From Hyphomonas sp. (GTDB lineage: Bacteria; Pseudomonadota; Alphaproteobacteria; Caulobacterales; Hyphomonadaceae): 64,000 nt of DNA. Numbering within the stretch: the first letter of the stretch is position 1; every line of letters begins with the position of its first letter. A program made the translations under genes and the position numbers. The DNA is taken from assembly GCA_016124495.1 (NCBI GenBank), contig WGNP01000002.1, forward strand, positions 1 to 64,000, read 5' to 3'. Below the pieces are notes generated by a model. That model was not told the DNA's origin and did no database searches. It was given only the letters and a program-made list of their open reading frames with translations. Positions 20,567 through 53,260 of the stretch are shown one piece after another.

Positions 20567-20569
20567 GCG

Positions 20570-21247: not shown

Positions 21248-21274
21248 GGCGGCGATCTCCTTCGCGTTGAGTCA

Positions 21275-27636: not shown

Positions 27637-30573
27637 ATGACGTTTGAACTGAAATTCGCCCCTGTCAGCAATCGCCGCCCCTCCCCGGGCGCCCGCGCAA
27701 AGATCCGGGGCTCGGTTTGGAAAATTCAGAGGGTGGAGCCAGACGGGGCAGCGAACTTCCTGCACTGCGTCGGACTGACCGGTATCGCCAAAGGCAAGTC
27801 GTCGATCTTCATCGACCGCCTCGAGCCCGACCTTGAGCTTCTGGACCCTGCGAACCTGATACTGGTGCCGGACGACAGCAGCAATTTCCGGGACACCAAA
27901 CTCTTTCTGGAAGCGGCGTTCCGGAGCGCGCCTCCAACAGCTCCGTCTCCATTGGTACTAGGCAAGGCTGCGATCGATGATTTGGCCTTCCAGCATGTAC
28001 CCGTCCGCAAAGCGCTGGCGCAGCCGCGCATACGGCTCCTGATAGCCGACGATGTCGGCCTCGGCAAAACGCTTGAGGCAGGTCTCATTGCGTCTGAGTT
28101 GATTCTGCGCCACCGCGCGGAGCGGATCCTGGTCGTATCCACCCGCGCGATGCTGACACAGTTTCAGCGCGAGTTCTGGTCTAGGTTTTCGATTCCCCTC
28201 GCGCGGCTCGACAGCTCTGCGATCAAGCGAATGCGCAATTCTATCCCGGCGAGCTACAATGTGTTCGACCAGTTCGACCGTGCAATCGTGTCGATTGATA
28301 CACTCAAGAAGGATCTCCAGTACCGCGTCGCCCTGGAGACGTCCCGGTGGGACCTAATCATCATCGATGAAGCACACAATGTGGCTGCCCGCAAATCCGC
28401 GACGGGCTCGAAGAGCCAAAGAGCGCGGCTCGCGGAGTTGCTCGCAGCGCAAACCGACGCACTGCTGCTCCTGACAGCGACGCCCCATGATGGCTCGGCA
28501 AGCTCATTTGCGAGCCTTATCGAGATGCTCGACCCAACGCGCGTCCCTGACCCCGACAAGCTGCAGCGCGAGGACATCGAAGACCTGGTTGTGCGCCGGT
28601 TCCGTTCCTCGCCGGAGGTGATGGCCGACATTCGTCAGCATGTTGAGCCGCGGATCCTCTATCCGCGGCATTTCCCGCTCGGGTCGGCGGAAGACGCGGC
28701 TTACGATTATGTTGCCAACCTGAAACTCGATGAGGACATCGAAGCAGGCGAACGCCGGCGGGCGATCGACCTCTTTCGGACCACACTGGCCAAAGCTCTG
28801 TTCTCGAGCCCTGCGGCTTGTCTGGAAACCGTCCAGGGCCGTTTGCGCCGGATCAAGGCGGGGACGGCCAAGGGGTCAGAAGCAGACCGGGCAAAGCTCG
28901 AAGCGCTGGCAGCGTTGCTCTCGCAGATCGAGCCAAAGGATTTCAGCAAGTACCAGGACCTGCTGCAGCTTCTGAAAGAGCAGAAATGGACGGGCCGCGC
29001 AGCGCGCGACCGTCTGGTCATTTTCTCCGAACGGATTGCTACCTTGAACTGGCTCCAGTCGCGTCTGACCGAGGACTTGGGTCTTGCTCCCGAAACGATC
29101 GGCAAAGTAGACGGTTCTTCTGTCGAAGCCGATGAGACCACGCAGAAAGTGCTGCAGGATTTTGGTCAGGAGGGCTCGAAGCTCCGCATCCTCCTTGCGT
29201 CAGACATGGCCTCTGAAGGGCTCAACCTTCACTTTCAGTGCCACCGTCTCATTCATTTTGACTTGCCCTGGTCGCTGCTGAGATTTCAGCAGCGCAATGG
29301 ACGTATCGACCGGTACGGACAGGATCGCCGACCAGAGATCTACTACTTCATTGGCGAGAGCAGCCACCCCCGCGTGCGTGACATGTGGGTACTCGATAAG
29401 CTCGTGGCCAAAGATGAAGCCGCGCAGGACGGGATCGGCGATCCGGCCGTTTTCCTCGGATGCGGCGACATCGAAGGGGAAGAGGCAAAAGTCGCAGAGG
29501 CGATTGCAAAGGGGATCGGCGCTGAGGCCTTCGAAGCCCAGATGGACGCGGTCGCCGCATCACGCGCACCGGAGCAAGTGACCGACGAATGGGAGCTGTT
29601 GTTCAGCGAATATCAGGAGACCGCGCCCGCCCCCGCGCAGCCCCTTCGGAAGCCACCGCAACTTTATGAGGACACATTCAGTTTTGTCGCGGCGATGCTG
29701 CAGCAACTCTCAAGTGGCAATGGCCGAGATTTTGCCGTTGATCCCGTGGAGCGGGTGATCCGTCTTACCTTGCCTGACGAACTCAAGGCCAATGATGCGT
29801 TCGGTTACAATCTGGCAGGTCAGGTGGATGACCGGTACATGCCGCCTGAAGCCGTCGGGCCGGGCGACCGTATCGAACTGACGGACCGAGCAAGCAATGT
29901 CAGTCAGGCGATTCAGCAAGCGCGAGCGGAAGAACGCGCCTGGCCGACTTTGCAATATCTTTGGGGCGTGCATCCTTTGGTCAAATGGCTCGGGGAGCGC
30001 GCCGAGTCTCTGTTTTCTCATGGGCAAGCACCTCTTTGCGAAGTGCAGCAGGGATTGGAGCCCGGTGAGACAGCCATTCTGGTTCATGGCGCCGTGCCGG
30101 ATGGTGCGGGGCGTCCAGCGGTCGAGCTTTGGAGTGTCGTATTCCTGACGCAGGGCGCGGTGTCGCGCATTGAGGCGGATGTCGATGCGTTTCTCACGCG
30201 GATCGGATTCAAGGGAGACACGCCGAACCCTGCGCGTGAGCAGGCACCGGTATCCGCCACCATGTTAGAACTCGCGGTGGAAGCCTTCCAATCCGAACTT
30301 TCCAAAGCGCGGCGCGTCCGCCAAACTGAACTCAACGAAGTGGCAACCAGTGTTCGCGCCCGCCTAGCAGGCTTCAAAGGCCGCTTTGACGTCCAGCTCT
30401 CTCTTCAGCTTGAAGCCGGCCAAGCAAATGCGAAGGACCGTATGCAGCGCAAAGTCGAGGGCATGTTCCGAAGTTGGGAGCAGTGGATCACGAACGCCTG
30501 CGTGCTGATCGATGAGCCCAATCCACATGTGGATATCAAGGCTGTGTTCCGGAGGTCAGAGCATGGCGTTTGA
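27637..30573 (+). CDS. SNF2-type helicase, DrmD-like
   Basis: A 978-residue SF2 ATPase. A short N-terminal beta domain ('GARAKIRGSVWKIQRVEPDG', about 18-60) precedes the two RecA-like lobes: motif I 'IADDVGLGKTLEAGLI' (about 137), motif II 'IIIDEAHNVA' (about 243), motif III 'LLLLTATPHDGS', then lobe 2 with 'LLASDMASEGLNLHFQCHRL' and motif VI 'QQRNGRIDRYGQ' (about 550). The C-terminal 400 residues are helical. The closest family that I know is DrmD of class 1 DISARM, always next to a large adenine methylase as here. The start ATG has no clear ribosome site. Its stop overlaps the next start by 11 bases. Probable role: translocation on invading DNA. Confidence 0.85.
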   Translation: MTFELKFAPVSNRRPSPGARAKIRGSVWKIQRVEPDGAANFLHCVGLTGIAKGKSSIFIDRLEPDLELLDPANLILVPDDSSNFRDTKLFLEAAFRSAPPTAPSPLVLGKAAIDDLAFQHVPVRKALAQPRIRLLIADDVGLGKTLEAGLIASELILRHRAERILVVSTRAMLTQFQREFWSRFSIPLARLDSSAIKRMRNSIPASYNVFDQFDRAIVSIDTLKKDLQYRVALETSRWDLIIIDEAHNVAARKSATGSKSQRARLAELLAAQTDALLLLTATPHDGSASSFASLIEMLDPTRVPDPDKLQREDIEDLVVRRFRSSPEVMADIRQHVEPRILYPRHFPLGSAEDAAYDYVANLKLDEDIEAGERRRAIDLFRTTLAKALFSSPAACLETVQGRLRRIKAGTAKGSEADRAKLEALAALLSQIEPKDFSKYQDLLQLLKEQKWTGRAARDRLVIFSERIATLNWLQSRLTEDLGLAPETIGKVDGSSVEADETTQKVLQDFGQEGSKLRILLASDMASEGLNLHFQCHRLIHFDLPWSLLRFQQRNGRIDRYGQDRRPEIYYFIGESSHPRVRDMWVLDKLVAKDEAAQDGIGDPAVFLGCGDIEGEEAKVAEAIAKGIGAEAFEAQMDAVAASRAPEQVTDEWELLFSEYQETAPAPAQPLRKPPQLYEDTFSFVAAMLQQLSSGNGRDFAVDPVERVIRLTLPDELKANDAFGYNLAGQVDDRYMPPEAVGPGDRIELTDRASNVSQAIQQARAEERAWPTLQYLWGVHPLVKWLGERAESLFSHGQAPLCEVQQGLEPGETAILVHGAVPDGAGRPAVELWSVVFLTQGAVSRIEADVDAFLTRIGFKGDTPNPAREQAPVSATMLELAVEAFQSELSKARRVRQTELNEVATSVRARLAGFKGRFDVQLSLQLEAGQANAKDRMQRKVEGMFRSWEQWITNACVLIDEPNPHVDIKAVFRRSEHGV

Positions 30574-33500
30574 ACTGATTGGCATTGAGAACGAGAACGA
30601 TTTCTATCCCGCTGCTTTTCTGTCTTCGGCGCTGGAAGCAGAGATCGCGGATGCGATTTCGCGCTGGGCGTCGGGCGAACCCTCAATTTCGCCCGACAAG
30701 CGGCTCGAGCCGATTGCTGAAGAATACCTTAGGCTGCTGAGCCGTATTCGCTTGTCAGGAACACGGGAGATTTCGCTTGAGAACGCAAAAGCCGCATCCT
30801 CCCTGATCATCCCTGCGCTCGGCTATGAATATAGACGCGCCTTCGCGTCTCTCGATAGCGGCGTCCAAGTGCCTCTGCTTGCGCGAGTTGCCGATGCGGA
30901 CGGACGGGACCGCCTTTGGATGATTGAATCGCCGCTCCCCGGCAAAGAGGACGAGGCGGCTGATCCTCTGTCGCTTTCTTTCTCAAAAGATCAGTTCCCT
31001 GACAGCCTCGTGGCTTCTGCGGATACAGAATCCACGATCCAGGATGTGATCTCGAGCGGCATCTTTGATCAGACTGACCCTCCACGCTTTGTCATTGTGG
31101 CGTCACCATCCCAGCTGGTTCTGGTCGACCGAAACAAATGGACGAGCCGCTCCGTTCTTCGCTTCGACCTCGCTGAAATCTTCACGCGAAGCGATCGCCC
31201 TACCCTTCAGGCGATGGCCTGCTTCCTGTCGCGGGAGGCCCGCGTCCCCCAGACGGGTATTCCGCTGGCAGAACGACTAGAAGAGGAAGCCCAGCGCCAC
31301 GCAAACGCGGTCACCGGCTCGCTCAAGAAAACGGTTCGCGAAGCAATCGAGATTCTCGGTAACGAAGTCTTGGCAGCCTGCGAGAACAAATATCCGAAAG
31401 GGCATCCGCGCGCGGGGGTCTGGATCGAGAGCCAGGATCTCTCGATCGAGTGTCTGCGTTACATGTACCGGCTACTCTTCCTCTTCTATACTGAAGCCAA
31501 TCCCCGTCTCGGCATCGTCCGCATGGACGATCCTGCCTATCGCACGGGTTATAGTCTCGAAGCCTTGAGAGCACTTGAATCCGTGCGACTGCGGACGGTG
31601 GAGGACCGTGAAGGCACATTCATCTGGGATAGCCTGCAGAGGCTGCTTGGATTGATGTTCGAGGGTCTGACGCCTCGCCAGATTGGCGCGAGCAAGTCTT
31701 TCTCCCTGCCGCGTGTGCGTGTTTCGTTGCTCGACCCCCAGAGCACGCCAATCCTCTCGCGGGTGAAGCTTCGCAACGAAGCTCTGCAGAAGATCATTCG
31801 CCTGTTGTCGCTGAAGCAAGACAAAGCAGGCACGGGTCGCATCTCGTACGCCCAGCTCGGCATTGGCCAACTCGGCGCAGTCTATGAAACGCTGATCTCG
31901 TTCACTGGCTTTGTCGCCAAGACAGATCTGATCGAGCTGATCCCTGGCAAAGCGGCGTCCAACGACGCAGACGATGAGGATGCGAACGACGAAGAAGACG
32001 AAACCGATGCAGAGGACACAGATGAAGAAGAAGTCGGAGCCTATTCGGCAACGAACAAGATCGACCCCCTTGCTCCGAGTTACTTTGTAGAGCGTAGCCG
32101 TGCTGACGAGTTTAAACCCGAACAGATCGTCTATGACGGCCCCCAGCCACGGATCTATCGAAAAGGCAGTTTCATCTACCGCCTTGCCGGCAGGGACCGC
32201 CAGAAGTCCGCATCCTACTACACACCGGAGCCTCTCGCGCGACTTCTCGTCAAGCATGCGCTGATAGAGCGCTGTAAGGATCTCAAAGCGGATGACATCC
32301 TTGATCTCAAAATCTTAGAGCCGGCGATGGGATCGGCCGCGTTCCTTGTCGAGACAACTAATCAGCTTGCGGATCTCTATCTGGAGCGCAAGCAGACAGA
32401 GACCGACCAGCGGATCCCTCAGGAAAACTACTTCGAGGAACGCCAACGCGTCCGAGCGTATATTGCGGACCGAAACTGTTTCGGCGTCGACCTCAACCCG
32501 ATCGCTGTTGAACTGGGTCAGATATCTCTCTGGCTCAACAGCCTGCACAATGGTGAGTTCTCGCCCTGGTTTGGCGACCAACTGCACGCGGGCAATTCGT
32601 TGATCGGCGCAAGGCGCGCGAGCTATCCTAAACGCCTGCTGACGACAAGGAATGCGAAGGATCTCTGGCTACAACAAAAGCCGGAGGAAATCGGCTGGCG
32701 CGGCGCGCGCCCTGCCGATCATGTCTGGCAATTCCTGCTCCCCGCCAAGGACATGGCCAAGTTCGATACCGAGAAATCGATCGCGGAGTTTGCAAAGCCG
32801 GCGCAGGACGCGATTAAGGCGTGGCGCAGGGGCGGATTCTTCGCCCCCTTCGAGGATCATGAGGTGAAGATCCTCGTCCAGCTGTCTGTAGCTGCAGACG
32901 CACTTTTCGAGTCCGTTGCTGACGACCTCAAGAAAATTCGCGCCAGCTGCAATGACGAGATAACGCTCTGGCCCGGCAAGACCATGCCCGGCGTCAAAGG
33001 TCAGGACTATAACACAAAGCTCGAACGCCTCCGGGTGTTGCAAGGCGTGGAGCACGTGTCAAACTCGCTCCCCTACCAGCGCCTAAAGACCGCAATGGAC
33101 GCCTGGTGCGCGCTTTGGCTATGGCCGCTGGATCAAGCGGACAAGCTCCCAAGCCGGCAGCAGTTCCTCTTCGGTCTGACGTCTATACTCAAAGGTGGCA
33201 TCACTTCGAGCGGAGACCTTGAGGTCCCGGCACGAGAAGACATGAGCCCAAGACAAGGCGACCTGCTTACAAGACAGGAAGCAGCCGACGCGCTCGCCGC
33301 CGAACTTCCCTCCGCCAACTCACAAAGCGCGCTGTTTCAGCAAACAGATATCGATGCTCTGGTCGAAGCCTCCCCCTGGCTCAAGGTCGCCCAACAAGTC
33401 GCTGCCCGCGAGCGATTCACTCACTACGATCTCATCTTTGCAGACGTGCTCCGCGACCGCGGCGGCTTCGACCTCATCGTCGGAAACCCGCCTTGGGCCA

Positions 33501-35401
33501 AGCCCAGCTGGAACGAAGGCCTGGTGCTCGCAGACTTCGACCCTATCCACCTCGGACTATCAGCTACGCAAGCAAAAGCAGTTCTGGCAGAAGCGCTCGC
33601 CAAAATTGGGAAGCAGAAAGAATTTCTCTCGGAGTTCGTGTCCACTCGCGGTGCAATGGCAGTCACAAGCTCTGAACAAATGAATCCATTTGCAGGAGGC
33701 GGCGCCAATAACCTTTATCGCTGCTTCCTTGATTTAGCATTTCGGGCATCGCAACCCTCAGGTGTATCGGCACTCATTCATCAAGATGGACACCTCACCG
33801 ATCCAAAGTCGGGCATATTCCGTTCTAAAGTATACCGTCGACTGGTGAAGCGCTTTCAGTTTCGGAATGAGATTAGATCCAAGAACTTCTCAGAAGTAGC
33901 CAACAATAAGTACTTCTCGCTTAATATTTACTTTGGCTCAGAACGATCTGTTTCTTTCGATAATTTTGCTGCAGCATTCCTCGCCTCTCAAGTCGAGGAA
34001 TCTTACGCTCACGACGGAAAAGGAAGCGTTCCCCTCGAGCGAACCCACGACAATAAATGGGACACGAGAGGCCATAGACAGCGTATTGTTCATATAAACG
34101 AATTCACAATGAGCGCTATCCATGCACTCTCAGAAGCTGAAATCATCCCGATCGAACAAACTCGATTCTTGCAGCCTTTTCACGCTGGCATGCTCGATAT
34201 TTTTAGGAAACTAGCTGACAAGAGCACGATCGCCGCCGCAATTTCAAAATGGCAAATGGACAGAATTTGGGATGAAACGAATTCCCAAAAGGTGCTGCAA
34301 GTACTTCGCAAAAGAATCGATTTTGCGGCTTCATCCTCGGAGACAATTCTCACCGGTTCTATGATTCATGTCGGGAACCCCCTGTACAAATCTCCGAACC
34401 GCGGCTGCAAATCGAACAAGGACTATGAAGTAATTCAGCTGGATCAAATCGGCGAAGAGTATCTGCCTCGATGCTTGTATGTGCCAACCGATGATACTGA
34501 CCGCTACAGACAACATTTGCCAAAAACTGGATGGGATCCAACCAAATCGCACACGGACCATTTTAGGTTGGCTTGTCGCCGAATGATTGACCCAAAAGGT
34601 GAAAGGAGCCTGATCACAGCCCTTGTGCCACCCGGTATGGCCCATGTTCACACCATTGAAAGTATTGCGTTTAAAGAGATCGATGATCTTCTTTGCGTCA
34701 GCGCTTTGTCATTTTCCATCGTCTACGATTTTCTGACACGCGTGTCGGGTCGAACAGATCTTTATGACTCTGCGGTTGGTGGATGGCCGCATGTTGATCT
34801 AGCTGATGCTTGCAAGCTGCATGTACTACGGCTTTCCTGCCTTACGCGTCCCTACGCACCGCTTTGGAGCGAGGCTTTGAAGCATGTCAGATCGTCCAGG
34901 TGGCATACTGAGGATGAGCGGCTTCGAACTCTAGATTTCGAGGGAAACATAGTCGAATGGACCTCCGAACATGCTCTTAAAACGCATTTCAGTAGGCGGA
35001 TGGCGCTTGTAGAGATTGATGTCTTGGTAGCGCAGGCTCTAGGCTTAAGCCTGCAGGATCTGATCGATATTTATCAGATATATTTCCCAGTAATGCAGAA
35101 GTACGAGGATGGCACGTGGTACGATGCTAACGGGAGTATTGCTTGGACAAATTCGAGGGGATTGATCGGAACAGGATACGTTGATGCGAACAATAAATCA
35201 CCGCCTGAGGCAAGTTGGTTGCGCACAGTCGAGACGAACCCGACCGAACTAACATGTGTCGTGAAGCTTGATGCCTATTCAACGGGCCCACGTGAAGTCA
35301 CCCGGCGCTTCGTCGGCCCCTTCACCAAGTGTGATCGCGTCGAAGACTACAAGCGTGCTTGGGCCTTCTTTGAGGCGCACAAGGATGGGAAGAGCGCGTA
35401 A
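30563..35401 (+). CDS. Large N6-adenine DNA methylase, DrmMI-like
   Basis: 1612 residues, far longer than a simple methylase. The N-terminal 540 residues resemble the helical region of type IIG/Eco57I-like enzymes; an acidic linker (about 466-492, nearly all D and E) follows. The methylase core: 'SASYYTPEPLARLLVKHALI' (about 546), SAM motif I 'LEPAMGSAAFLVE' (about 585), 'FGVDLNPIAVELGQISLWL', and catalytic NPPW in 'FDLIVGNPPWAKPSW' (about 974). The remainder is a target-recognition region. The ATG at 30563 has GGAGG 7 bases upstream. In class 1 DISARM, the DrmMI methylase marks host DNA; here it is third to none in size and its recognition part is markedly AT-richer than its neighbours. Confidence 0.87.
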   Translation: MAFELIGIENENDFYPAAFLSSALEAEIADAISRWASGEPSISPDKRLEPIAEEYLRLLSRIRLSGTREISLENAKAASSLIIPALGYEYRRAFASLDSGVQVPLLARVADADGRDRLWMIESPLPGKEDEAADPLSLSFSKDQFPDSLVASADTESTIQDVISSGIFDQTDPPRFVIVASPSQLVLVDRNKWTSRSVLRFDLAEIFTRSDRPTLQAMACFLSREARVPQTGIPLAERLEEEAQRHANAVTGSLKKTVREAIEILGNEVLAACENKYPKGHPRAGVWIESQDLSIECLRYMYRLLFLFYTEANPRLGIVRMDDPAYRTGYSLEALRALESVRLRTVEDREGTFIWDSLQRLLGLMFEGLTPRQIGASKSFSLPRVRVSLLDPQSTPILSRVKLRNEALQKIIRLLSLKQDKAGTGRISYAQLGIGQLGAVYETLISFTGFVAKTDLIELIPGKAASNDADDEDANDEEDETDAEDTDEEEVGAYSATNKIDPLAPSYFVERSRADEFKPEQIVYDGPQPRIYRKGSFIYRLAGRDRQKSASYYTPEPLARLLVKHALIERCKDLKADDILDLKILEPAMGSAAFLVETTNQLADLYLERKQTETDQRIPQENYFEERQRVRAYIADRNCFGVDLNPIAVELGQISLWLNSLHNGEFSPWFGDQLHAGNSLIGARRASYPKRLLTTRNAKDLWLQQKPEEIGWRGARPADHVWQFLLPAKDMAKFDTEKSIAEFAKPAQDAIKAWRRGGFFAPFEDHEVKILVQLSVAADALFESVADDLKKIRASCNDEITLWPGKTMPGVKGQDYNTKLERLRVLQGVEHVSNSLPYQRLKTAMDAWCALWLWPLDQADKLPSRQQFLFGLTSILKGGITSSGDLEVPAREDMSPRQGDLLTRQEAADALAAELPSANSQSALFQQTDIDALVEASPWLKVAQQVAARERFTHYDLIFADVLRDRGGFDLIVGNPPWAKPSWNEGLVLADFDPIHLGLSATQAKAVLAEALAKIGKQKEFLSEFVSTRGAMAVTSSEQMNPFAGGGANNLYRCFLDLAFRASQPSGVSALIHQDGHLTDPKSGIFRSKVYRRLVKRFQFRNEIRSKNFSEVANNKYFSLNIYFGSERSVSFDNFAAAFLASQVEESYAHDGKGSVPLERTHDNKWDTRGHRQRIVHINEFTMSAIHALSEAEIIPIEQTRFLQPFHAGMLDIFRKLADKSTIAAAISKWQMDRIWDETNSQKVLQVLRKRIDFAASSSETILTGSMIHVGNPLYKSPNRGCKSNKDYEVIQLDQIGEEYLPRCLYVPTDDTDRYRQHLPKTGWDPTKSHTDHFRLACRRMIDPKGERSLITALVPPGMAHVHTIESIAFKEIDDLLCVSALSFSIVYDFLTRVSGRTDLYDSAVGGWPHVDLADACKLHVLRLSCLTRPYAPLWSEALKHVRSSRWHTEDERLRTLDFEGNIVEWTSEHALKTHFSRRMALVEIDVLVAQALGLSLQDLIDIYQIYFPVMQKYEDGTWYDANGSIAWTNSRGLIGTGYVDANNKSPPEASWLRTVETNPTELTCVVKLDAYSTGPREVTRRFVGPFTKCDRVEDYKRAWAFFEAHKDGKSA

Positions 35402-38400
35402 TGAACCCCACCCTTCTTGGCAAACAAGTTGAACACGGTCTCAAAGACCTTATCCGGTCGAGCTTCGAGACTTCTTCTCCAGCGTTTGAAGGCATGATCG
35501 AGACCTTTCTCGACACGCCTGGTAACTTCCTCAAAGGCCCGTGGCTGTCGGTTGACTTGCCCTTCAGATCGTCGAGCGCTTCGACTGAGCCCTTTCCTGA
35601 GGTCCCGCTGGGATTCCGGCCTCACAAGCACCAGGAGCTTGCGTTTGAACGCCTACGCGCGCCTGACGCTAAATCCACACTGGTGGCGACCGGCACCGGA
35701 TCGGGCAAAACGGAATGCTATCTCTGGCCCATTCTCGATGCCTGCCGTGCGGCCAAAGATGAACCCGGCATCAAGGCGATCATAATTTACCCCATGAACG
35801 CGCTGGCAACCGACCAGGCGCGCCGGATAGCCAAAGCGATCCACCGTATTCCATCGCTCAAGGGCGTTCGTTGCGGGATATATGCTGACGCAGAACCGAA
35901 GCCTGCAACAGACATGATGACGGAAGCGGACGTCATCACCAGTCGGGAGCAGATGCGACGGGATCCACCGGATATTCTGCTCACGAACTACAAGATGCTC
36001 GACTACCTCCTCCTCCGAGGAAGCGACAAGCGGCTCTGGGCGAAAAATAGCCCCGAGACGCTTCGCTATCTGGTCGTCGACGAGCTCCACACGTTTGATG
36101 GCGCGCAGGGCGCTGACTTGGCGCTGCTCATCCGGCGTCTAAAAGCACGCCTCAAAACTCCCGCTGGTCACCTTGCTTGCGTCGGATCTTCCGCAACGCT
36201 CGGCAGCGGCGATGAAGCCGCCGAAAAACTTGTCAAATATGCAGAGGATCTCTTCGGGGAGCGGTTCGAAGCAAAGGGCGTAGTCCGCGAGGACCGCCTA
36301 CTCACGCACGAGTATCTCGAGAGCATCGACTTCACGGATCTGCCTTCGCCGCAAAGTGTTCTTGAAGCTGTCGAAGCCGGTCTCGGGCAAACCCAGGCAC
36401 AGGCGGCCGTCAGTCTCGCCAAGCTCTTCTTCGACGATTTTGATCCCGGAAGCGCTTACTTTGACAAGTCGATCCCTAGCGATCCTTCTGATCCGGCTTG
36501 GCGCGTTGCGTTGGGAACGAAGCTTCGGGCTCATGTCGCGTTCCACAGGGCGCTCGAAGCAATCCAAGCCAGCGGCCGCGCGGCGTCTCTAGAATCCACT
36601 GTCGATGCGCTGGCCAGTGCGCGGCTATTCCGGGCGGGATGGACGAGGGCAGAGCTGACCGCGCTCGTTGAAGCGATCGTGATCTTGACGGCTTGGGCAC
36701 GGCGAGACCTCGACGGACGCGTGCAACCACTCCTGAACGTCAGGATCCAAACCTGGGCGCGGGAACTTGGACGCATGGTCGCCACCATTCCCCTGCCCGA
36801 TGAAGGCGCAGGTCGCGCGCCAGGAATCCTGCACCATTCCGATGACCTTGAAGAGGTCGAGCTTCAGAAATCCCTTCCGGTCGTCTTGTGCCGTCACTGT
36901 GGCACGAGTGGACAGCTTTGCAGGGTTAATGAAGGTGGCGGCTCGATCTGGGCGCCGCTGGATACGTTGTACTCTGACTTCTTCGATGGCGGAGACCGCA
37001 TTCGAATTGTCTACTATGAGCCCGTCCAGAGAATTTCGAAGAGTGCCGGATATGGCGCAGTCGTCCCGGGCAGACTTCACCCGGAGAGCCTGAATTTCAA
37101 ATGGGAAGAGGCATCGGAAAAATCGGACGGAACTTTGCCTGCGTGGTTATTCAATCCGGTCGATGATCGCAGCAACGTGAATACAACCTGCCCCTCCTGC
37201 GGAACGTCCCATAGCTTGCAGATCCTGGGACTGCGCTCTGCGCGCCTCACTGCCGCGCTCTCCACGACCTTGTTCAATTCCGATCATCACGAAGAGCTTG
37301 ATGATCAGAAACCTCGTGTGTTGATCTTCTCCGACTCTGTTCAGGACGCAGCCCAGCGCGCTGCCGTCACAGAGATTCGTAATGTTCAGACGGTGGTGCG
37401 CAAAGCGCTCTACCGCGCAGTTCAGGATGAGCCAGGCAGCGGGCTGCCTCTCAGCGAGCTCTGGAGCAGTTCGATCGCCGAGATGCGCCACGCACTCGGA
37501 GAAACGACTTTTATCTCACGGTTCGTGTCGCGCGATCAGACCTGGCGTCAACCCTATGTCGATCTGAGCCTTGAAGGCAGAGAGCCTACGAATGGTCAGT
37601 TTGCGGATGACGTCGCCTTGCGTCTCGGCTGGGAGTTCTTTTCGGACCTGACCTACCGCTCGCGCACCTCGCAAACGCTTGAAACGGCCCGAATCTGCGT
37701 CGCCGACGTGCCCACAACAAGCATTGCGGCCGCAGCTGAAGATTTTCAGATCGCGTTGCACGCCGGACTGGGTGCTGACTTTGCTCTGAGCAAAGAGGAA
37801 GCATTCTCGTTTCTCGAGGGGCTTGCCATTCATATGCGCCGATCCGGCGCCGTCTCTCATCCCTATGTAAAAGCAGCTGTCGAACGCGGCAGCGCTGTGA
37901 AGGGACCCAACTATTTTGCCGGTCAGAAGGCGCTAGGACTTGGCAATCGAGGAGTGCTGCCCGCACCTAACCAACGGACGTCTGCTGCGCCTCGGCTCCC
38001 TACCCTGCGGTCTCGCGCGGAAGGTTTTCAGTATGTCGGCCGGGACAATGGTGCGAACTGGTACCGTGCCTGGAGCAATCGCTTCTTCGGCAAAGCGTCG
38101 GGCGGACTTGGAACCCGGCATACGGACATCTTCCAGCATGCGTTTGACACGCTTGCCCGGCATAAGATTGCCGAGGCAATCGCGACGAGCGGCACGGATT
38201 CAGTTGATGCCTGGGCTCTCCGACCCGAGGCGATCATCGTCACCAGTCAACTTACACACGTCAGTTGCAATCGATGTGGGCGAAGGGAAAGCCTTCCGGC
38301 TCATGAAGCGGCAGATTTCAGTCACGCCTGTCTTCGCATAGGATGTAGCGGTGACCTCCTGGCAGAAGAGACAGCAGAGGGGCAGACACACGGGTCTGCC

Positions 38401-41400
38401 TATCTCAAATCGGTGATGGACACAGCGCGAAATCACCGGGTCGTGGCCCGGGAGCACACCGGAATTCTTGAGACGGATGATCGACGTAAGCTGGAGACCC
38501 TGTTCATCGAAGGCGAGGCGCCCTGGCATCCAAATTTGATCTCGGCGACCCCTACCCTCGAAATGGGTATAGATATCGGGGATCTCTCGACGCTTATCCT
38601 GGCATCGATGCCGCCGGAAGAAGCTAACTATGTCCAGCGCATCGGCCGCACAGGCCGGCGGGATGGAAATTCTCTGAACCTGACGCTGATATCGGCGCGG
38701 CCGCATGATCTTCAGTTTTGGGAGGATCCAGGGTCGATGCTCGCGGGTCAGGTGACGCCTCCAGGCGTCCACCTGCAAGCTATTGCGGTGCTGCGTCGCC
38801 AGGCGGCGGCCTTTGCGCTTGATCGCTTTGTTGCCGAGAGTGACAAAGAGATCGAGTACGGCACGGTCAACTCGTCGATCTCGGCAATCGAGCGCAACCT
38901 CAAGACAGAATTTCCCTGTAACTGGTTTGACCATCTGTCTCAGAACGCAGAATCAATTGCGGAGACGTTCCTCGCGATCCTGCCCGACGCAGTTCGCGAA
39001 CGCGACGTGCTTGCCAATCAGCTCAAAGACTTTCTGGTAAGCGACGGAGAAGAAAGCCTCCGCTACAAGATCAGCGCTGCATTTGGATCGGCGGCTGAAG
39101 AACGCGCAGAATTGCTCGAACTTCAAAAGCGCCTCGACAATGAACGACGCCGCATGAAAGAGCAGTCGCCTCCGCCTACTGATCTTGAAGATCAACTGAA
39201 CAAGCTCAAGGAGCGCCGCACAGAGATTTCACGGACAATCCGTGAGACGATCAACCAGGTCAAAGTTCTGCGATTCCTGACAGATCGCGGACTCTTGCCC
39301 AACTACGCTTTCCCCGAAGAGGGCGTTAAACTCAAATCGATCATCGTCAAAGCGCGGGAAGCAGGCACCACGCAGAAGGACCAGGATGCGGACCTGATCA
39401 TCCGTGAGTACCAACGCCCGGCGTCCTCGGCGTTGAGTGAGTTTGCACCCAATCAGACTTTCTATGCCGAAGGGCGTCAAGTCACCATTGACCGGATCGA
39501 TCTGCGATCGAAGGACATGGCGGTCTGGCGTTTCTGTCCGAACTGCACGCATGGCGAACTGGAAGCCACCGCCGCATCGAAGCCAACCTGTCCGAGGTGT
39601 ACCAGCCCCATGTGGGCGGATTCTGGGTCACGAGCCGATGCGGTTGAGCTGCGTTCGGTTGTGGCGACCTCCAGTGAGCAGAAAGCTGCAATACGCGATC
39701 TCGATGATCGCACGTCCAAACAATACGACCGAGAAGTTTTCCCCAACTATGCCGACGATGCGATTGAAGTCGCTTATGCAGTCAAGGATGGCAAGGCGCA
39801 GGTTCCGTTTGGATTTGAGTTCGTTCCGCTGTGTGAGTTCCGGGATATCAATTTTGGCCAGAAGACCGCCATGCGGATGGGCCAGAACATCGCTGGGGAG
39901 CAACGCCAGTCGCGGCCATTCCTGATCTGCAAAAAATGCGGAATGCTGCAGACAGACGGCTTTGACAAAGACCGTGACCAAAAGCCAGGCGAGCATCAAT
40001 CGAGATGCTCGGCCGACCATATGGCTGAGCCGCGCGCGTCTTGGGAAACGGCAGTCTACTTGATGCGCCGGTTCACAACCGAAGCCCTTCGCCTGATCGT
40101 GCCGGTCGCGGGTCGTGCCGGCGCGGATGACATCAAGAGCTTTGTTGCGGCTATCGAGCTCGGACTGAAGAAGCACTTCTCCGGCCGCGTTGATCACATC
40201 CGCAGCGTAGTTGTTGATGAACGTCTGCGCAGCGGTGCCAGCGTCAAGAATCTCTACCTCTATGACGCTATCCCGGGTGGGTCGGGCTATTTGCGCCAAC
40301 TTGCAAGCAATCCGCAGACGCTGTTGAGGGTCTTCCGGCTGTCTGCGGCAGCCCTGCGCGATTGCCGCTGCGTCGGCCAAGAGGGCAAGAACGGCTGCTT
40401 TCGCTGTGTGAAGCCCTACCGGTCGCAGTTCGGCCCAGGTGAGCCGAAGCGGGATCTCGCGCTGCAGATGGTCGAATCTGTGCTGGCCGATTGGGACGGC
40501 CTGGTCCGTGTCGAGAAAGCGATCAACGAGGTTCTTGGCGCTGAGCTCATCGAAAGCGAGCTCGAAGCGAGATTCTTGGACCGGCTTCAGAAAGCCTTTG
40601 GGTCGAAGGCATTGAAGCCCATCGTGCTCGAGGGTGGCAAGCGGGGCTTTCAGCTTCGCATCGAAGCGCAGGGACAGGAAATATTCTGGCAGATCGAGCC
40701 ACAGGTCCAGATCGACAAGCGGTTCCCGGGACTACCGGTCCGCAGAGTGGATTTCCTAATGAGCATGACCGGGGAAAGACCGGACAAGCCGATGGTCGTG
40801 GAGCTCGATGGCTGGGAATATCACGCGCCAACAATCGAAGAGGATGTTGAGACCCGCCTTCGCATGATCCGCAGCGGCAAAGTTGAAGTCTGGACGCTGA
40901 CCTGGGAGGACTTCGAGGACAACGCGGGACGCCTGGCAAATCCCTTCGGCCCAGGCGTTTTGGATCCATCATCTGAGGGCACACTGACAAAACTGCTGAC
41001 CCAACCTCAGTTTGAGACGCTGCATGCCCTCTCCGCGCCGATTGACACGCTCCGAGCTGGTCGCTCGATGGACGCGCTACTCAAGCAGCTGAAGTTGGAA
41101 GGCGAAGGACGCGAGAAGGCGGCCGCTCTATTTGGACGCATCGCGATTGGGCCAAAGGGGAATGTCATATCCGCTCTGGATACCTCGAAGCTCAATGAAG
41201 ACGCCCGCCTCTTCCTGGAGGAAGCGAGTCTGTTTGGAAGTCTTGAGAATGGCGGCCTGTCCGCTTTCCTCGGCTTACCAAATGGCTCGCCCCTGGAAAT
41301 CGCCGAGAACACGGCTGCCGCAAGGTTTGTGATGTATGCCGAATTCTCAGGCGCGCCGCAGGACCGACTGGGCGACGAGCCGGCGAGAGCTTTGTGGAAA

Positions 41401-41817
41401 GGTCTTTGGCGGTGCGTGAACCTGCTACAGGATTTACGCGGCCTGCATGTCAGCATGCCCGGCCTTGAGACACTGGACGCAAACGCCTCGGACAAAGACG
41501 TCGCTCCCGATAGTGTATTGTCTGATGTCGCATGGAACGACGTGCGGTCTCTGGTCGATGAAGACATGGTTGAAATTGTAACCGCGCTCTATCAGGCTGG
41601 CCTGCCTCCGCCCGACATGATCGGGGAAGACCTTATGGACGGCGACAAGGTTATCGGGACCGTGGACATCGGCTGGCGCGAGCAACGCTTTGGCTTTGCG
41701 CAGGAGCCTCCAGCTATCCCCAATTGGGAGATTGCCCAGTTGGTTTCTTTCGGTTCACCTGACTTTTCCGAATTTCTTCGCCGCGTTGCGACCAAAGTGT
41801 CAGGAGGCAAGGCATGA
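35401..41817 (+). CDS. Giant helicase-DUF1998-nuclease fusion (DrmA/DrmB-like)
   Basis: 2138 residues. Lobe 1 of an YprA/Lhr-type SF2 helicase: 'VATGTGSGKTECYLWP' (about 98) and 'YLVVDELHTFDGAQGAD' (about 226). Lobe 2: 'SATPTLEMGIDIGDLSTLIL' and 'QRIGRTGRRDGNS' (about 1056-1090). Several CxxC pairs are scattered between (near 496, 596, 954, 1377, 1509). A DUF1998 region has 'YLYDAIPGGSGYLRQL' and the Cys cluster 'CRCVGQEGKNGCFRC' (about 1655-1670). Near 1781-1810 'RRVDFLM' and 'MVVELDGWEYH' form a Vsr/DUF559-like PD-(D/E)XK nuclease site. DISARM encodes DrmA (helicase) and DrmB (DUF1998) separately; here they are one chain with an added nuclease. The ATG overlaps the methylase stop by one base (TAATG). 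Confidence 0.85.
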   Translation: MNPTLLGKQVEHGLKDLIRSSFETSSPAFEGMIETFLDTPGNFLKGPWLSVDLPFRSSSASTEPFPEVPLGFRPHKHQELAFERLRAPDAKSTLVATGTGSGKTECYLWPILDACRAAKDEPGIKAIIIYPMNALATDQARRIAKAIHRIPSLKGVRCGIYADAEPKPATDMMTEADVITSREQMRRDPPDILLTNYKMLDYLLLRGSDKRLWAKNSPETLRYLVVDELHTFDGAQGADLALLIRRLKARLKTPAGHLACVGSSATLGSGDEAAEKLVKYAEDLFGERFEAKGVVREDRLLTHEYLESIDFTDLPSPQSVLEAVEAGLGQTQAQAAVSLAKLFFDDFDPGSAYFDKSIPSDPSDPAWRVALGTKLRAHVAFHRALEAIQASGRAASLESTVDALASARLFRAGWTRAELTALVEAIVILTAWARRDLDGRVQPLLNVRIQTWARELGRMVATIPLPDEGAGRAPGILHHSDDLEEVELQKSLPVVLCRHCGTSGQLCRVNEGGGSIWAPLDTLYSDFFDGGDRIRIVYYEPVQRISKSAGYGAVVPGRLHPESLNFKWEEASEKSDGTLPAWLFNPVDDRSNVNTTCPSCGTSHSLQILGLRSARLTAALSTTLFNSDHHEELDDQKPRVLIFSDSVQDAAQRAAVTEIRNVQTVVRKALYRAVQDEPGSGLPLSELWSSSIAEMRHALGETTFISRFVSRDQTWRQPYVDLSLEGREPTNGQFADDVALRLGWEFFSDLTYRSRTSQTLETARICVADVPTTSIAAAAEDFQIALHAGLGADFALSKEEAFSFLEGLAIHMRRSGAVSHPYVKAAVERGSAVKGPNYFAGQKALGLGNRGVLPAPNQRTSAAPRLPTLRSRAEGFQYVGRDNGANWYRAWSNRFFGKASGGLGTRHTDIFQHAFDTLARHKIAEAIATSGTDSVDAWALRPEAIIVTSQLTHVSCNRCGRRESLPAHEAADFSHACLRIGCSGDLLAEETAEGQTHGSAYLKSVMDTARNHRVVAREHTGILETDDRRKLETLFIEGEAPWHPNLISATPTLEMGIDIGDLSTLILASMPPEEANYVQRIGRTGRRDGNSLNLTLISARPHDLQFWEDPGSMLAGQVTPPGVHLQAIAVLRRQAAAFALDRFVAESDKEIEYGTVNSSISAIERNLKTEFPCNWFDHLSQNAESIAETFLAILPDAVRERDVLANQLKDFLVSDGEESLRYKISAAFGSAAEERAELLELQKRLDNERRRMKEQSPPPTDLEDQLNKLKERRTEISRTIRETINQVKVLRFLTDRGLLPNYAFPEEGVKLKSIIVKAREAGTTQKDQDADLIIREYQRPASSALSEFAPNQTFYAEGRQVTIDRIDLRSKDMAVWRFCPNCTHGELEATAASKPTCPRCTSPMWADSGSRADAVELRSVVATSSEQKAAIRDLDDRTSKQYDREVFPNYADDAIEVAYAVKDGKAQVPFGFEFVPLCEFRDINFGQKTAMRMGQNIAGEQRQSRPFLICKKCGMLQTDGFDKDRDQKPGEHQSRCSADHMAEPRASWETAVYLMRRFTTEALRLIVPVAGRAGADDIKSFVAAIELGLKKHFSGRVDHIRSVVVDERLRSGASVKNLYLYDAIPGGSGYLRQLASNPQTLLRVFRLSAAALRDCRCVGQEGKNGCFRCVKPYRSQFGPGEPKRDLALQMVESVLADWDGLVRVEKAINEVLGAELIESELEARFLDRLQKAFGSKALKPIVLEGGKRGFQLRIEAQGQEIFWQIEPQVQIDKRFPGLPVRRVDFLMSMTGERPDKPMVVELDGWEYHAPTIEEDVETRLRMIRSGKVEVWTLTWEDFEDNAGRLANPFGPGVLDPSSEGTLTKLLTQPQFETLHALSAPIDTLRAGRSMDALLKQLKLEGEGREKAAALFGRIAIGPKGNVISALDTSKLNEDARLFLEEASLFGSLENGGLSAFLGLPNGSPLEIAENTAAARFVMYAEFSGAPQDRLGDEPARALWKGLWRCVNLLQDLRGLHVSMPGLETLDANASDKDVAPDSVLSDVAWNDVRSLVDEDMVEIVTALYQAGLPPPDMIGEDLMDGDKVIGTVDIGWREQRFGFAQEPPAIPNWEIAQLVSFGSPDFSEFLRRVATKVSGGKA

Positions 41818-43991
41818 CCGATACTCAATACCGAGTCTCTTTTGACATCGCCTGCATGAAAGCCCTGCGCAAGGTGCCATCAAAGGTGATGGAGCGCTTT
41901 CATGACATGGTTTTGAAGTTGATGGTCGATCCATCTCGCAGTGGTCTCAACATTGAATCGATCCAGGGCGCGCGCGATCCGGCGATGCGCTCATTCAGAA
42001 TTGATCAGGGATACCGCGCGATCGGGTACCTGCAGGGTGGTGACTTGCTGCTGCTGCATGTCGATGAGCACGACAAGGCCTACCGATGGGCGACCAACCG
42101 AACCGTTCAGTTCAATCCGAAACTCAACAGGATCCAGGTCCTTGAAAGCCTCCCGGTCGAGATTGCAGAGTCGCCGGCGCAAGAGCCACAACCGGGACCA
42201 GAAGCCGCGCGCTCCCAGACACTGTTCGCCGCTTATCCCGACTCTGATCTTCTGAGCGTCGGCATTCCGGCGGAAGAGCTTCCGCGTATCCGGCAGTATC
42301 AGACAGAACGCGATCTCGAAGCTGACCAGGGCGCGCTTGACGGAGCCGTGTACGATATTCTGTTTTCGCTCGCGGCGGGATTTGCACTTAGCGACATTCC
42401 TTCCCTGATTGTCGCAGCTGATGCCCCGCCCACACAGACCCTCGATTTTGCTGATGCGCTGCGCACAGACGAAAGCCGGCAAGAGATTTTCGTGCCGGAG
42501 GATGAAAAAGAGCTTCGACGGTTCCTGAACGGAGACCTGGAAGGCTGGCGGGTCTTCCTGCATCCGGAGCAACGCCGCATCGCATATCACAAAGGGTATA
42601 ACGGTCCGGCGCTTGTGCGCGGCGGCGCCGGTACCGGCAAAACAGTTGTCGCGATGCACCGTGCGAAACACTTAGCAGATGAGATCGCCCGCGACCCTGG
42701 ACGCAGGGGCGACAAGGTGCTGTTCACAACCTTCACTTCGACACTGGCCCGAGATGTAGAAGGCAATCTCAAAACGCTGTGCCCCGAACACATCTCTGGC
42801 GGCGACCCCACGATTGAAGTCATCAACCTTGATCGCTGGGTTGGAGAGTTTTTGAAGCGTCGAGGGTTTGAGCGGAGCGTCGTCTACTTTGGCGAAGAGC
42901 GTGATCGTCTCGACGACATCTGGGATGAGGTTCTGGCGGGTGCCGATCTGCCGGAAGGCCTGACGAATGACTTCATCAAGGACGAATGGAGCCAGGTCGT
43001 CCAAGCCAAGGGCGTAGGCTCAGAACGCGAATACTTCGCAGCTAAACGCGTCGGCCGAGGCACTCCCTTGGACCGCCGGAAGCGCCGGGATCTATGGTCG
43101 GTGTTTGAAGCCTACCGCGCCAAAATGATTGATGAGGGACTGGCGGAGCCGGATGACGCTTACCGCGAAGCAATTGCTATCCTTGAACGCGATGGAACTC
43201 GCCTTCCCTACACATCAGCAGTCGTGGATGAGGCTCAAGATATGGGCGAACCTGCGCTGAAGCTGCTTAGGGCCATTGTGCCGAAGTCGGTAGCTGATGA
43301 TCGCAATTCGCTCTTTATCGTCGGCGACGCCCACCAGCGCATCTACGCGCGCAAAGCATCAATGGGCACGTGTGGTATCGATGTGCGCGGCCGGTCTCGC
43401 AGACTACGCCTGAACTATCGCACAACAGAGATGATCCGCCGTTACGCGGTTGCCATACTTGAAGGCATCGACGTTGATGATCTCGATGAGAGCGCCGACA
43501 CGCTTTCTGGATATAGAAGCCTTGTGAAGGGCGGCGAGCCTGAACGTCACGGATACAAGACCAAATCAGAAGAGCTCAAGGCGTTGACCCAATGGCTCAG
43601 CGCATCACACGGCCGGTCAACCGACACTTCCTCCGTGGCCGTCCTTGTGCGGACCAACGCGCAGCTTGTGGAAGTGGAAGCAGCATTGAAAGCTGCAAAG
43701 CTGTCGACCTTCGTGCTGAAGAACAACATGTTCGACGACCCTTCAAAAACAGGCATTCGCATTGCCACAATGCACCGGGCAAAAGGTTTGGAGTTTGACC
43801 GTGTCGCATTGGCATTGCTCGCAGAAAACATGTTGCCACCCCGGCACGCATTGCAGCGGGCAGTCGACGATGCAGGGCGAAGAGAAATCATTGAGCGAGA
43901 AAAGTCGCTCTTGCACGTCGCCAGTACCAGAGCCCGCTCGCATCTACGGATCAGCTGGCATGGCTCCCGCCCCACTCTACTACTCGAATAG
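41814..43991 (+). CDS. UvrD-type helicase with RelE-like N-terminal domain
   Basis: 725 residues. Residues 1-105 resemble a RelE/ParE toxin fold: 'VPSKVMERFHDMVLKLMVDP', 'MRSFRIDQGYRAIGYLQGG', 'LLLLHVDEHDKAYRWATNR'. A linker domain of about 150 residues follows. The SF1A helicase begins near 265: 'LVRGGAGTGKTVVAMHRAKH' (motif I), 'AVVDEAQDMGEPAL' (motif II, about 470), 'IVGDAHQRIYARKASM' (III), 'RLRLNYRTTEMIR' (IV), 'ATMHRAKGLEFDRVAL' (V, about 652) and 'LLHVASTRARSHLRI' (VI). RelE-UvrD fusions occur near restriction-like systems; whether the RelE part is catalytic or only binds DNA or RNA is unknown. It overlaps the preceding stop by four bases (ATGA), so it belongs to the operon. Confidence 0.87.
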   Translation: MTDTQYRVSFDIACMKALRKVPSKVMERFHDMVLKLMVDPSRSGLNIESIQGARDPAMRSFRIDQGYRAIGYLQGGDLLLLHVDEHDKAYRWATNRTVQFNPKLNRIQVLESLPVEIAESPAQEPQPGPEAARSQTLFAAYPDSDLLSVGIPAEELPRIRQYQTERDLEADQGALDGAVYDILFSLAAGFALSDIPSLIVAADAPPTQTLDFADALRTDESRQEIFVPEDEKELRRFLNGDLEGWRVFLHPEQRRIAYHKGYNGPALVRGGAGTGKTVVAMHRAKHLADEIARDPGRRGDKVLFTTFTSTLARDVEGNLKTLCPEHISGGDPTIEVINLDRWVGEFLKRRGFERSVVYFGEERDRLDDIWDEVLAGADLPEGLTNDFIKDEWSQVVQAKGVGSEREYFAAKRVGRGTPLDRRKRRDLWSVFEAYRAKMIDEGLAEPDDAYREAIAILERDGTRLPYTSAVVDEAQDMGEPALKLLRAIVPKSVADDRNSLFIVGDAHQRIYARKASMGTCGIDVRGRSRRLRLNYRTTEMIRRYAVAILEGIDVDDLDESADTLSGYRSLVKGGEPERHGYKTKSEELKALTQWLSASHGRSTDTSSVAVLVRTNAQLVEVEAALKAAKLSTFVLKNNMFDDPSKTGIRIATMHRAKGLEFDRVALALLAENMLPPRHALQRAVDDAGRREIIEREKSLLHVASTRARSHLRISWHGSRPTLLLE

Positions 43992-48700: not shown

Positions 48701-48881
48701 TGGACTCGAGAGACTGGATCAGCTTTCCACCTCCCAAATCTACTGTCCGATATCGCCGTCCATTGATGTCACGGACATGGCCCGTTGCCACGCCAACCTT
48801 CGAGGGGTCGTTCGATAGCCGAACCCTAGTCCCCTCAGATATCGACATAACCTGCTCCGCGCTCATTCCCGGAGCAACCAT
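45741..48881 (-). CDS. SNF2/HepA-type helicase coupled to the Hsp70-like ATPase
   Basis: 1046 residues. A short N-terminal beta domain ('GTRVRLSNDPSKVGVATGHV', 'YRTVDLGGGKLIQSLESNLM') is followed by an SF2 Snf2-like core: motif I 'LLIADEVGLGKTIEAGLIWT' (about 130), motif II 'LLVFDEAHHLRNPETS' (about 260), motif III 'KLMLSATPINLGSE', lobe 2 'LLVTEVGSEGLDLQFCRVLV' and motif VI 'VEQRIGRIDRIGQ' (about 650). The last ~150 residues are coiled-coil-like and Lys/Glu-rich. The layout is that of RapA/HepA and of DrmD-like proteins. The start is uncertain: ATG 48881 was chosen; TTG 48917 and ATG 48866 are alternatives, none with a good ribosome site. First gene of a two-gene leftward operon convergent with the DISARM-like operon. 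Confidence 0.85.
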   Translation of the reverse strand: MVAPGMSAEQVMSISEGTRVRLSNDPSKVGVATGHVRDINGRRYRTVDLGGGKLIQSLESNLMVAHERPDALSDLIAGKLAAPDDLARLLTHIRLTGSLSDMIYSMESTNTDFHAYQFKPIIKLLNSAARGLLIADEVGLGKTIEAGLIWTEISARYQAGRLLVVCPKSLQEKWRLELLKRFAVKARVADAREVHLALKDAQESSAEFALIATYSALRAPRDWREGGATSQRASAGLARFLEENDATDPLIDLLVFDEAHHLRNPETSQHRLARHLVPVADHKLMLSATPINLGSEDLRSLLRLLEPDLFESNWIFEEMQAENEPIVHAREMALNSSKSLTALREAIAAIEPGRILKTDRRLANLQKQILDDPVTDTPERRAHIAASLEEMSLLGGIVNRTRRRDVAEIQIKRRAVSRLWAMNETERAFYGAATQIIRSYALQKDLSDAFLLANTQRVLASCLPAAWKRWRQTEVVDDIDEDIGDEELDRPASVGPLVAALSAACRDSRLFDELRAGDSKYKLLRQAFVESWAANPDEKIIVFSSFRGTVDYLEERLVSDGVPCIKLHGNVKEDRGEVLERFRKAIGRCVLLVTEVGSEGLDLQFCRVLVNYDLPWNPMRVEQRIGRIDRIGQASPSVEIFSLVCERTIEESIYRRLYERLDLIERTLGGFEPILGEIVIELQRRVLDPRLSPEDIDREIERAAVSAQNRKVQEDALEEEAPGLIAHGDMILNRIRSSHDQKRWIGPEELYRYVRSGLMGKYPNSSVDRAAVTDWQHDVKLCAVAHHDFRIFLEREAKTFPTQLRRQNSLRVAFGRSRPVDKPDAVEVVHTGHPLVRFVGRCQQEDLSLSEGRPAVWGRLDRANLFVVCPEGKYGLAVQRWSVKGTTPQDRLVFAGIDLADGQTIPAERAEELVLASFEGLKPVLPAKDEASLVGEKIRERIIDHDLLKSYDAYLAEMEAAHQDKLETNLAVLRRKLSQQEERVADRLAKWKARADGKVNNLMLAERAKLEKFKAGMEAKIVRALESGQFDFQQAETLAVMVVEVN

Positions 48882-49045
48882 AACGCACTGATTCGCCCAA
48901 TTCACCCATCTAAACAAACTAAGGTTGCAGCGCTCCCCTCCAGCAATACGCGCTTCTTAAGAACGGAGTTCAGCGACTTGTGGCATTTCGAGTCGGCGCT
49001 GGAGCGACCAATATGGCGAGAGCCTCCAGAGCTCCTGCATCTGCA

Positions 49046-53251: not shown

Positions 53252-53260
53252 GGACCCGCC

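Follow-up and report, generated by a model that had tools for sequence, protein, structure and literature searches.

A predicted ARMADA Type II defence operon beside a conjugation cluster in Hyphomonas sp.

Results

A four-gene operon

We analyzed a stretch of 64,000 nucleotides from Hyphomonas sp. (contig WGNP01000002.1, positions 1 to 64,000), here called the window. Four open reading frames (ORFs), free of internal stops, are arranged head to tail on its forward strand at positions 27637-43991. As far as sequence comparison can tell, they almost certainly constitute a complete anti-phage system of the ARMADA Type II (ARMADA II) kind, and we refer to them as armA-armB-armC-armD (Table 1). 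ARMADA II was described by Bell et al. (bioRxiv 2025.09.15.676423, 15 Sept 2025; PMC12458937), and ARMADA is named as a defence system in PMC12904381 and PMC13192584 as well. The original prediction, made from the DNA letters alone, had left two options for these genes: a variant of DISARM, or a separate system with a methylase-helicase theme in common with it.

The extent of armB depends on the start codon. The longest ORF begins at the first ATG (30512-35401, 1629 amino acids (aa)) and overlaps armA by 62 bases. We chose the start at 30563 because it lies, by alignment, within two residues of the annotated starts of five homologues and has a GGAGG sequence just upstream. With this start, the armA/armB overlap is 11 bases; armB and armC overlap by exactly 1 base, and armC and armD by exactly 4. 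The ORF coordinates thus bear out the prediction of four rightward genes joined by overlaps of 11, 1 and 4 bases, the first of these given the start at 30563. Homologous operons across many bacterial groups exclude chance as the origin of the arrangement.

Table 1. Coordinates of the arm genes, of regions within ArmC and ArmD, and of example inserts at other loci (positions refer to the window unless a locus precedes them)
Feature	Position	Strand	Description or basis
armA	27637-30573	+	978 aa; BrxHII/RapA-like SNF2 helicase
armB	30563-35401	+	1612 aa from conserved start; PglX/YeeA-like adenine methyltransferase
armC	35401-41817	+	2138 aa; YprA-family helicase with nuclease motif
armD	41814-43991	+	725 aa; RelE-like domain fused to GajB/UvrD-like superfamily 1 (SF1) helicase
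ArmC RecA1 (DEAD), residues 76-268	35626-36204	+	PF00270
ArmC RecA2 (Helicase_C) part, residues 1013-1087	38437-38661	+	PF00271
ArmC MZB/DUF1998 zinc domain, residues 1583-1670	40147-40410	+	PF09369, 32.8 bits, cut-off 24.2
ArmC Vsr/DUF559-like PD-(D/E)xK motif region, residues 1719-1837	40555-40911	+	conserved residues
ArmC C-terminal tail, residues 1850-2138	40948-41814	+	structure model
ArmD RelE-like domain, residues 1-110	41814-42143	+	model versus PDB match
armB-armC insert example	L071:3675-9998		
armB-armC insert example	L088:2770-9959		
armB-armC insert example	L091:7263-9980		
armB-armC insert example	L059:5339-9953		
armB-armC insert example	L094:1519-10001		

Gene order, key residues and phylogeny

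According to the preprint (PMC12458937), ARMADA II has a strict order: ArmA is a BrxHII-like helicase, ArmB a PglX-like methylase, ArmC a YprA-like helicase with DUF1998 and a C-terminal Vsr nuclease, and ArmD a RelE-GajB fusion. The gene order and the fusions in the window agree with this description. As a reference for individual residues, the four arm genes of E. coli 730V1 (locus L024) were translated. All eight residues mutated in the preprint were present in this strain at the published numbers and with the same letters (ArmA K136 and D236; ArmB G605 and N971; ArmC K110 and D234; ArmD K266 and D454). All eight were also conserved in Martelella, Gemmobacter, Microvirga, Nostoc and the window, where the equivalents are K144 (Walker A) and D244 (Walker B) in ArmA, G590 (GxG) and N975 (NPPW) in ArmB, K103 and D227 in ArmC, and K276 (Walker A) and D472 (Walker B) in ArmD. 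For ArmA to ArmD in this order, the window proteins were 39, 38, 33 and 40% identical to those of E. coli (2011 aligned residues in the case of ArmC) and 58, 57, 46 and 55% identical to those of Martelella. In E. coli 730V1, annotated ZorA2/ZorB2 genes are followed by a STY4851-family protein and a DEAD helicase and then by the four arm genes. We infer that the genes for the STY4851-family protein and the DEAD helicase correspond to Druantia III, which has this position in the island of the preprint.

In a FastTree phylogeny of 95 proteins, 89 ArmC sequences, including those of the window and E. coli, were split from six other YprA proteins with a support of 1.0. The ArmC set comprised the proteins longer than 1900 aa, from 84 of the 86 loci counted below, and five references; letters X were removed and the start residues of references were set to M. 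The outgroup consisted of the putative DruE III helicase of E. coli, the protein of a Mesorhizobium locus with the YprA gene first, and four same-genus YprA fragments of 805-1227 aa, and it held no BRIGADE, TALON, DISARM or Dpd member by name.

Recurrence of the operon

A single-sequence ArmC scan of genome contigs gave no match, and a scan with a 9-row ArmC alignment succeeded. From the latter we took the best 80 of 491 relatives, a selection leaning to close relatives of the query, and added 8 loci from a scan of viral contigs with the ArmC alignment. Removal of two loci with ArmC scores below 300 bits (L123 and L124) from these 88 left 86. Among loci with enough flanking DNA, armB was found in 65 of 68 (3 kilobases (kb) or more upstream of ArmC), armA in 44 of 55 (9.5 kb or more upstream) and armD in 73 of 75 (1 kb or more downstream). 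In 8 of the 11 loci without armA, the armB-armC junction carried an insert (4.9-8.4 kb) that placed armA beyond the fetched stretch. Neither armA nor armB was seen in L066, L105 and L108, and armD was absent from L086 and L091 in spite of sufficient room. The original prediction had proposed a survey of the co-occurrence of the four genes; the set armA-armB-armC-armD recurs in most loci with room for it.

Of 664 plasmid records with a match, eight were opened. In seven of these the genes ran A-B-C-D; an additional gene separated armB from armC in two of the seven, and ArmC was split in two in one. In the eighth, the YprA gene came first. Of 5426 E. coli genomes, 518 matched a short armC stretch (about 12% of the 4-kb query) at the DNA level, and both genomes that were opened carry all four genes.

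Among 385 genomes of the host class, full-length ArmC (E <= 1e-150) was detected in two, namely the window's own and G007, the only one of 36 same-genus relatives to have it. A blastn comparison of the window with the 36 kb around the G007 copy gave three pieces within 27698-43522 that were 69-70% identical, and no match to the flanks in the window. Because the two genomes share the operon and not its flanks, the operon seems to move as a unit.

ArmA and ArmB

ArmA contains the Pfam domains SNF2-rel_dom and Helicase_C. Its best PADLOC models were DrmD models (339 bits), and it scored 348 against the NCBIfam model for DISARM DrmD, for which the cut-off is 610. ArmB contains Eco57I and N6_Mtase domains (Pfam) and matched PADLOC type IIG models with 670 bits, as compared with 194 bits for DrmMI models; a search of the protein against PDB gave no match. 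The original likening of the first two genes to DrmD and DrmMI agrees with the best PADLOC models of gene 1, though below the NCBIfam cut-off, and is less well supported for gene 2, which fits type IIG models better.

In the N-terminal region of ArmB (about 30914-30928), all six aligned ArmB proteins share the motif W[IVMF][IV]E and lack a lysine at the second residue after the E. This region may be the remnant of a nuclease domain inherited from a type IIG enzyme. We also considered ArmB as a plain type IIG restriction enzyme. This was rejected, despite the best-scoring models, in view of the N-terminal motif without the lysine and the retention of the partner genes in most loci.

ArmC

The best PADLOC models for ArmC were those of Druantia DruE (340 bits), as against 44 bits at best for DrmA models, and the NCBIfam DrmAL score was 22.5 with a cut-off of 999. 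Of the predicted DrmA-like helicase with a DUF1998 region, the DUF1998 part was present, and the helicase fits DruE models far better than DrmA models. Relatives in PDB, identified by sequence, include 9tu7 and 9wae (helicases of 2108 and 1970 aa) and YprA/MrfA (6znp). The fusion of helicase, DUF1998 and nuclease motif is real: DEAD, Helicase_C and MZB domains (Pfam) and the RRVDF...VVELDG motif are present in one 2138-aa chain. From the published OB-CON-DUF1998 arrangement we judged the DUF1998 part, which is fused to the helicase in the window.

Four cysteines of the MZB domain (C1655/C1657/C1666/C1669) were invariant in 9 of 9 aligned sequences, as were the pairs C497/C500, C597/C600, C956/C959 and C977/C982. 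BrxA-like, MarR-like and beta-barrel zinc inserts have been described in ARMADA II ArmC (PMC12458937).

The RRVDF...VVELDG motif lies within residues 1781-1804. Residues S1719, E1722, Q1768, D1784, D1803 and G1804 were the same in 86 of 87 homologues (the remaining one has a gap there), and H1808 and R1819 in 85 of 87. Vsr-like nuclease activity of ArmC is a prediction, with nearly invariant motif residues on one side and no significant PDB match for the structure model of residues 1690-2138 on the other. At the position of the tail that follows (residues 1850-2138), the preprint describes inactivated EEP/Vsr domains (PMC12458937); the model of residues 1690-2138, with no PDB match at E <= 0.001, did not confirm this identity for the window.

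ArmD and its RelE-like domain

The fusion of RelE and UvrD parts in the fourth gene, as originally proposed, was confirmed by two kinds of evidence. Pfam identified UvrD-helicase and UvrD_C domains, and the best PADLOC models for this motor were those of GajB (87 bits). The RelE part had no Pfam match at E 0.1 and was recognized by its predicted structure. The model of residues 1-110, built with 46 sequences, had a predicted local distance difference test score (pLDDT) of 87.3 and a predicted template modelling score (pTM) of 0.82. It matched 28 PDB chains at E <= 0.001, all of them toxins of the RelE superfamily or toxin-antitoxin complexes according to their titles, which name RelE, YoeB, YafQ, HigB, ParE and other toxins or complexes. 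The best match was T. thermophilus RelE (2khe), with template modelling (TM) scores of 0.65/0.78 and an E value of 3e-5.

Residues E48, R62, R68, H86 and Y90 were kept in 67-68 of 70 homologues (69 loci with ArmD above 600 bits and E. coli), and D87 in 69 of 70. The conserved residues may be comparable to known RelE/YoeB active sites. The constraint suggests that the site is used and is not a mere scaffold.

ArmD relatives (E <= 1e-60) were also found in 19 of the 385 genomes of the host class, 17 of which are without full ArmC. Partial YprA matches were present in 3 of these 17, and the match extended into the RelE part in 15 of 17. One large neighbour was scanned per genome in five of the 17, G214, G316, G250, G294 and G289 (L128-L132); the neighbours were an SNF2 helicase in two cases, an N6_N4 methylase in two, and a ResIII protein on the opposite strand in one.

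The armB-armC junction

A gap of more than 400 bases separated armB and armC in 33 of 69 ARMADA II loci. Gaps of this size were rare at armA-armB (3 of 53) and absent at armC-armD (0 of 77); a Fisher test against the other two junctions together gave a p of 4e-15, with the loci treated as independent, though they are not. Same-strand ORFs of at least 100 aa, sought on the plus strand only, were present in 31 of the 33 wide gaps. The 65 gap proteins, 63 of at least 120 aa from these loci and two from plasmids, formed 45 clusters (blastp 1e-4). Families among the 63 included AAA_21 (7), AAA_15 (7), Schlafen AlbA_2 (5), Sacsin (3) and OLD TOPRIM (3). Ten chosen gap proteins were compared with PADLOC at 1e-10, with matches for five of them: GajA in L059 (311 bits), ZorA2 in L071 (681 bits), GajB in L091, PDC-S05 in L083 and, weakly, pAgo in L076. 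The gene before GajB in L091 shares a blastp cluster with the GajA of L059. The window copy has no insert at this junction.

We are moderately inclined to regard the armB-armC junction as a dedicated cargo slot, with ARMADA II as a chassis that carries co-regulated defence partners and the window copy as its empty-slot form. The cargo may perhaps even comprise whole systems, such as the GajA-like and GajB pair in L091. A 2024 paper by Payne et al. reportedly has a title on defences embedded in immune systems. The main text of the ARMADA preprint (PMC12458937) does not mention the slot, and the words 'inserted between', 'accessory' and 'intervening' are absent from it.

Neighbourhood in the window

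A conjugation cluster lies beside the operon on the reverse strand (49421-60514), with TrbI/VirB10, CagX/VirB9, VirB8, TrbL/VirB6, VirB4, VirB11-like and VirD4-like proteins. The same strand encodes, at 44101-48917, a second SNF2 helicase of 1058 aa that overlaps a 547-aa protein. The helicase matched the PADLOC DrmD model PDLC02623 over nearly its full length (736 bits) and scored 410 against NCBIfam DrmD (cut-off 610). The 547-aa protein had no Pfam, PADLOC or NCBIfam match. It carries GFDFGTSSSK and IADIGASTLD, which we take to be actin/Hsp70-like phosphate motifs. Relatives occurred on three plasmids, and the two that were opened place the gene after an SNF2-related or helicase-related gene, once near Hachiman; among 105 genomes of the host family, only the window's own has it. 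The pair is a possible two-gene defence system.

Further away, a tRNA-Arg(ccg) gene is followed by an AbiEi/AbiEii pair of 312 and 294 aa (8301-10567, forward strand). On the reverse strand lie a 1122-aa protein with RNase_H_2 and AAA_12 helicase domains (10579-13947; MkoA models, 147 bits) and a single run (17833-22300) of a kinase-like protein (659 aa, weak PD-T4-6 match), two proteins with no PADLOC or NCBIfam match, and an ARPP-1 protein (341 aa, 280 bits). The window also contains a match to mmgR RNA, which, like the nearest ArmC relatives, points to an alphaproteobacterial host.

Discussion

Comparison with known systems

The system, its gene order, its fusion and its activity are already in print, and the window holds one more copy and no new DISARM subtype. 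It shares with ARMADA II the same four genes in the same order, the ArmC fusion with a Vsr-like motif, the RelE-GajB fusion and the eight mutated residues. The window differs from the E. coli system in that its proteins are just 33-40% identical to those of E. coli and in that the operon adjoins a VirB conjugation cluster. No Zorya or Druantia genes were detected by PADLOC in 10 neighbouring ORFs, apart from weak helicase cross-matches.

ARMADA Type I has YprA-like, BrxHII-like and PglX-like genes in common with the window, but its YprA gene is usually first (PMC12458937). The Mesorhizobium plasmid locus L036, which we took as Type I, has the YprA gene first, no adjoining UvrD gene, and a protein outside the ArmC clade. 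Druantia Type III is similar in that DruE models are the top PADLOC matches of ArmC. However, no DruH-like partner appeared among the 25 best PADLOC matches per window protein, and the putative DruE III helicase of E. coli fell outside the ArmC clade. The nuclease of Druantia III is PLD-like according to PMC12458937, and PLD is absent from the Pfam matches of the four genes. Gabija resembles the operon in its GajB motor, but the motor of ArmD is joined to a RelE domain and has no GajA partner.

Proposed mechanism and alternatives

ARMADA II with direct, methylation-guided restriction by a helicase-nuclease is probably the best overall explanation of the operon; towards the detailed mechanism we lean only slightly. 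ArmB would methylate adenines at recognition sites of the host DNA as a mark of self. ArmA, of the SNF2/RapA type, and ArmC, of the YprA type, would load on unmarked incoming DNA and translocate by ATP hydrolysis, ArmC probably with a preference for 3' single-stranded tails like its relative DruE. The phage DNA would then be cut or degraded by the C-terminal Vsr-like nuclease of ArmC. The UvrD/GajB-like motor of ArmD may aid DNA processing, while its RelE part may recognize or cut RNA, such as transcripts or R-loops, or serve as a binding module. Protection would be direct and without cell killing.

We favour a methylation self-mark and an attack by motors with cutting by ArmC because of the data for E. 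coli ARMADA II and the description of DruE as a helicase-nuclease. In E. coli NCTC 12900, ARMADA II protects directly and non-abortively, all four genes are needed, and six of eight point mutants abolish protection, with partial loss in ArmB G605A and ArmD D454N (PMC12458937). DruE is reported to load on 3'-tailed single-stranded DNA and is termed a helicase-nuclease (PMC13192584). What the window itself shows is homology, gene order, fusions and conserved residues; we infer self-marking by methylation, cutting by the Vsr-like region, the role of RelE and the activity of this copy.

Several observations weigh against this identification or mechanism. No ARMADA model was among the 25 best PADLOC v2.0.0 matches for each protein. 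The RelE-UvrD module is used outside ARMADA, so the fusion alone does not define the system. A 2026 review (PMC12904381) lists ARMADA among the systems that restrict by unknown mechanisms. In ArmC, position 1801 (the E of VVELDG) is F in 64 of 87 homologues and E in only 13, so that the predicted catalytic set departs from the textbook pattern. A model of ArmC residues 1690-2138 with a pLDDT of 86.9 had no PDB match at E <= 0.001 in Foldseek, the best being BsmI with E 0.067. The main text of PMC12458937 reports no mutants of the Vsr or RelE domains. The last three points would suit the main rival explanation, in which ARMADA II acts like BREX: the motors would block replication of unmethylated phage DNA, ArmC would not degrade it, and the Vsr-like region would be dispensable or regulatory. 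Relatives of ArmA and ArmB in both BREX and DISARM point the same way. We nevertheless regard such a block as unlikely, given the near-complete conservation of D1784, D1803, G1804 and H1808, which suggests an active site in use, and the helicase-nuclease nature ascribed to the related DruE.

Direct restriction also has to be weighed against abortive action, in which the RelE part of ArmD would be a true mRNase toxin that halts host translation once the helicase senses phage DNA. The RelE-like fold and the conserved residues E48, R62, R68, H86 and Y90 are compatible with an active site. However, protection by E. coli ARMADA II was direct, with membranes that stayed largely intact and no indication that the host shuts down (PMC12458937), and this makes abortive action improbable to a high degree. 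Least credible of all is the DISARM variant of the original prediction, with DrmA, DrmB and a nuclease fused and DrmC replaced. DISARM Class 1 and the window both have an SNF2 helicase, a methylase, a YprA-like helicase and a DUF1998 region, and the DrmD and DrmMI matches of ArmA and ArmB fit this picture. But DISARM Class 1 has separate drmA and drmB genes and a PLD nuclease, DrmC (PMC12458937), and the operon has neither. The original remark that these genes are missing was correct: one 2138-aa chain stands in the place of separate DrmA and DrmB, and the Pfam matches of the four genes and of 20 neighbouring ORFs scanned included no PLD nuclease domain. Furthermore, other models fit the methylase and the large helicase better, DISARM cut-offs are missed, and the fused four-gene set recurs with an ArmC that forms one clade in a tree without a DISARM protein. 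A rearranged DISARM was therefore rejected on model scores, missed cut-offs, the missing DrmC and the match to published ARMADA. What survives of the original prediction is its other option, a distinct system with a methylase-helicase theme, which already bears the name ARMADA Type II. The claim of novelty does not survive, since the order with the same fusion is catalogued, albeit under ARMADA instead of DISARM.

The question raised by the fused operon is thus settled: it is an instance of a published system, located here beside conjugation genes. The RelE and Vsr parts are under strong constraint, so that their role can be put to a direct test, and the armB-armC slot, a likely cargo site, could be mined for new defence genes.

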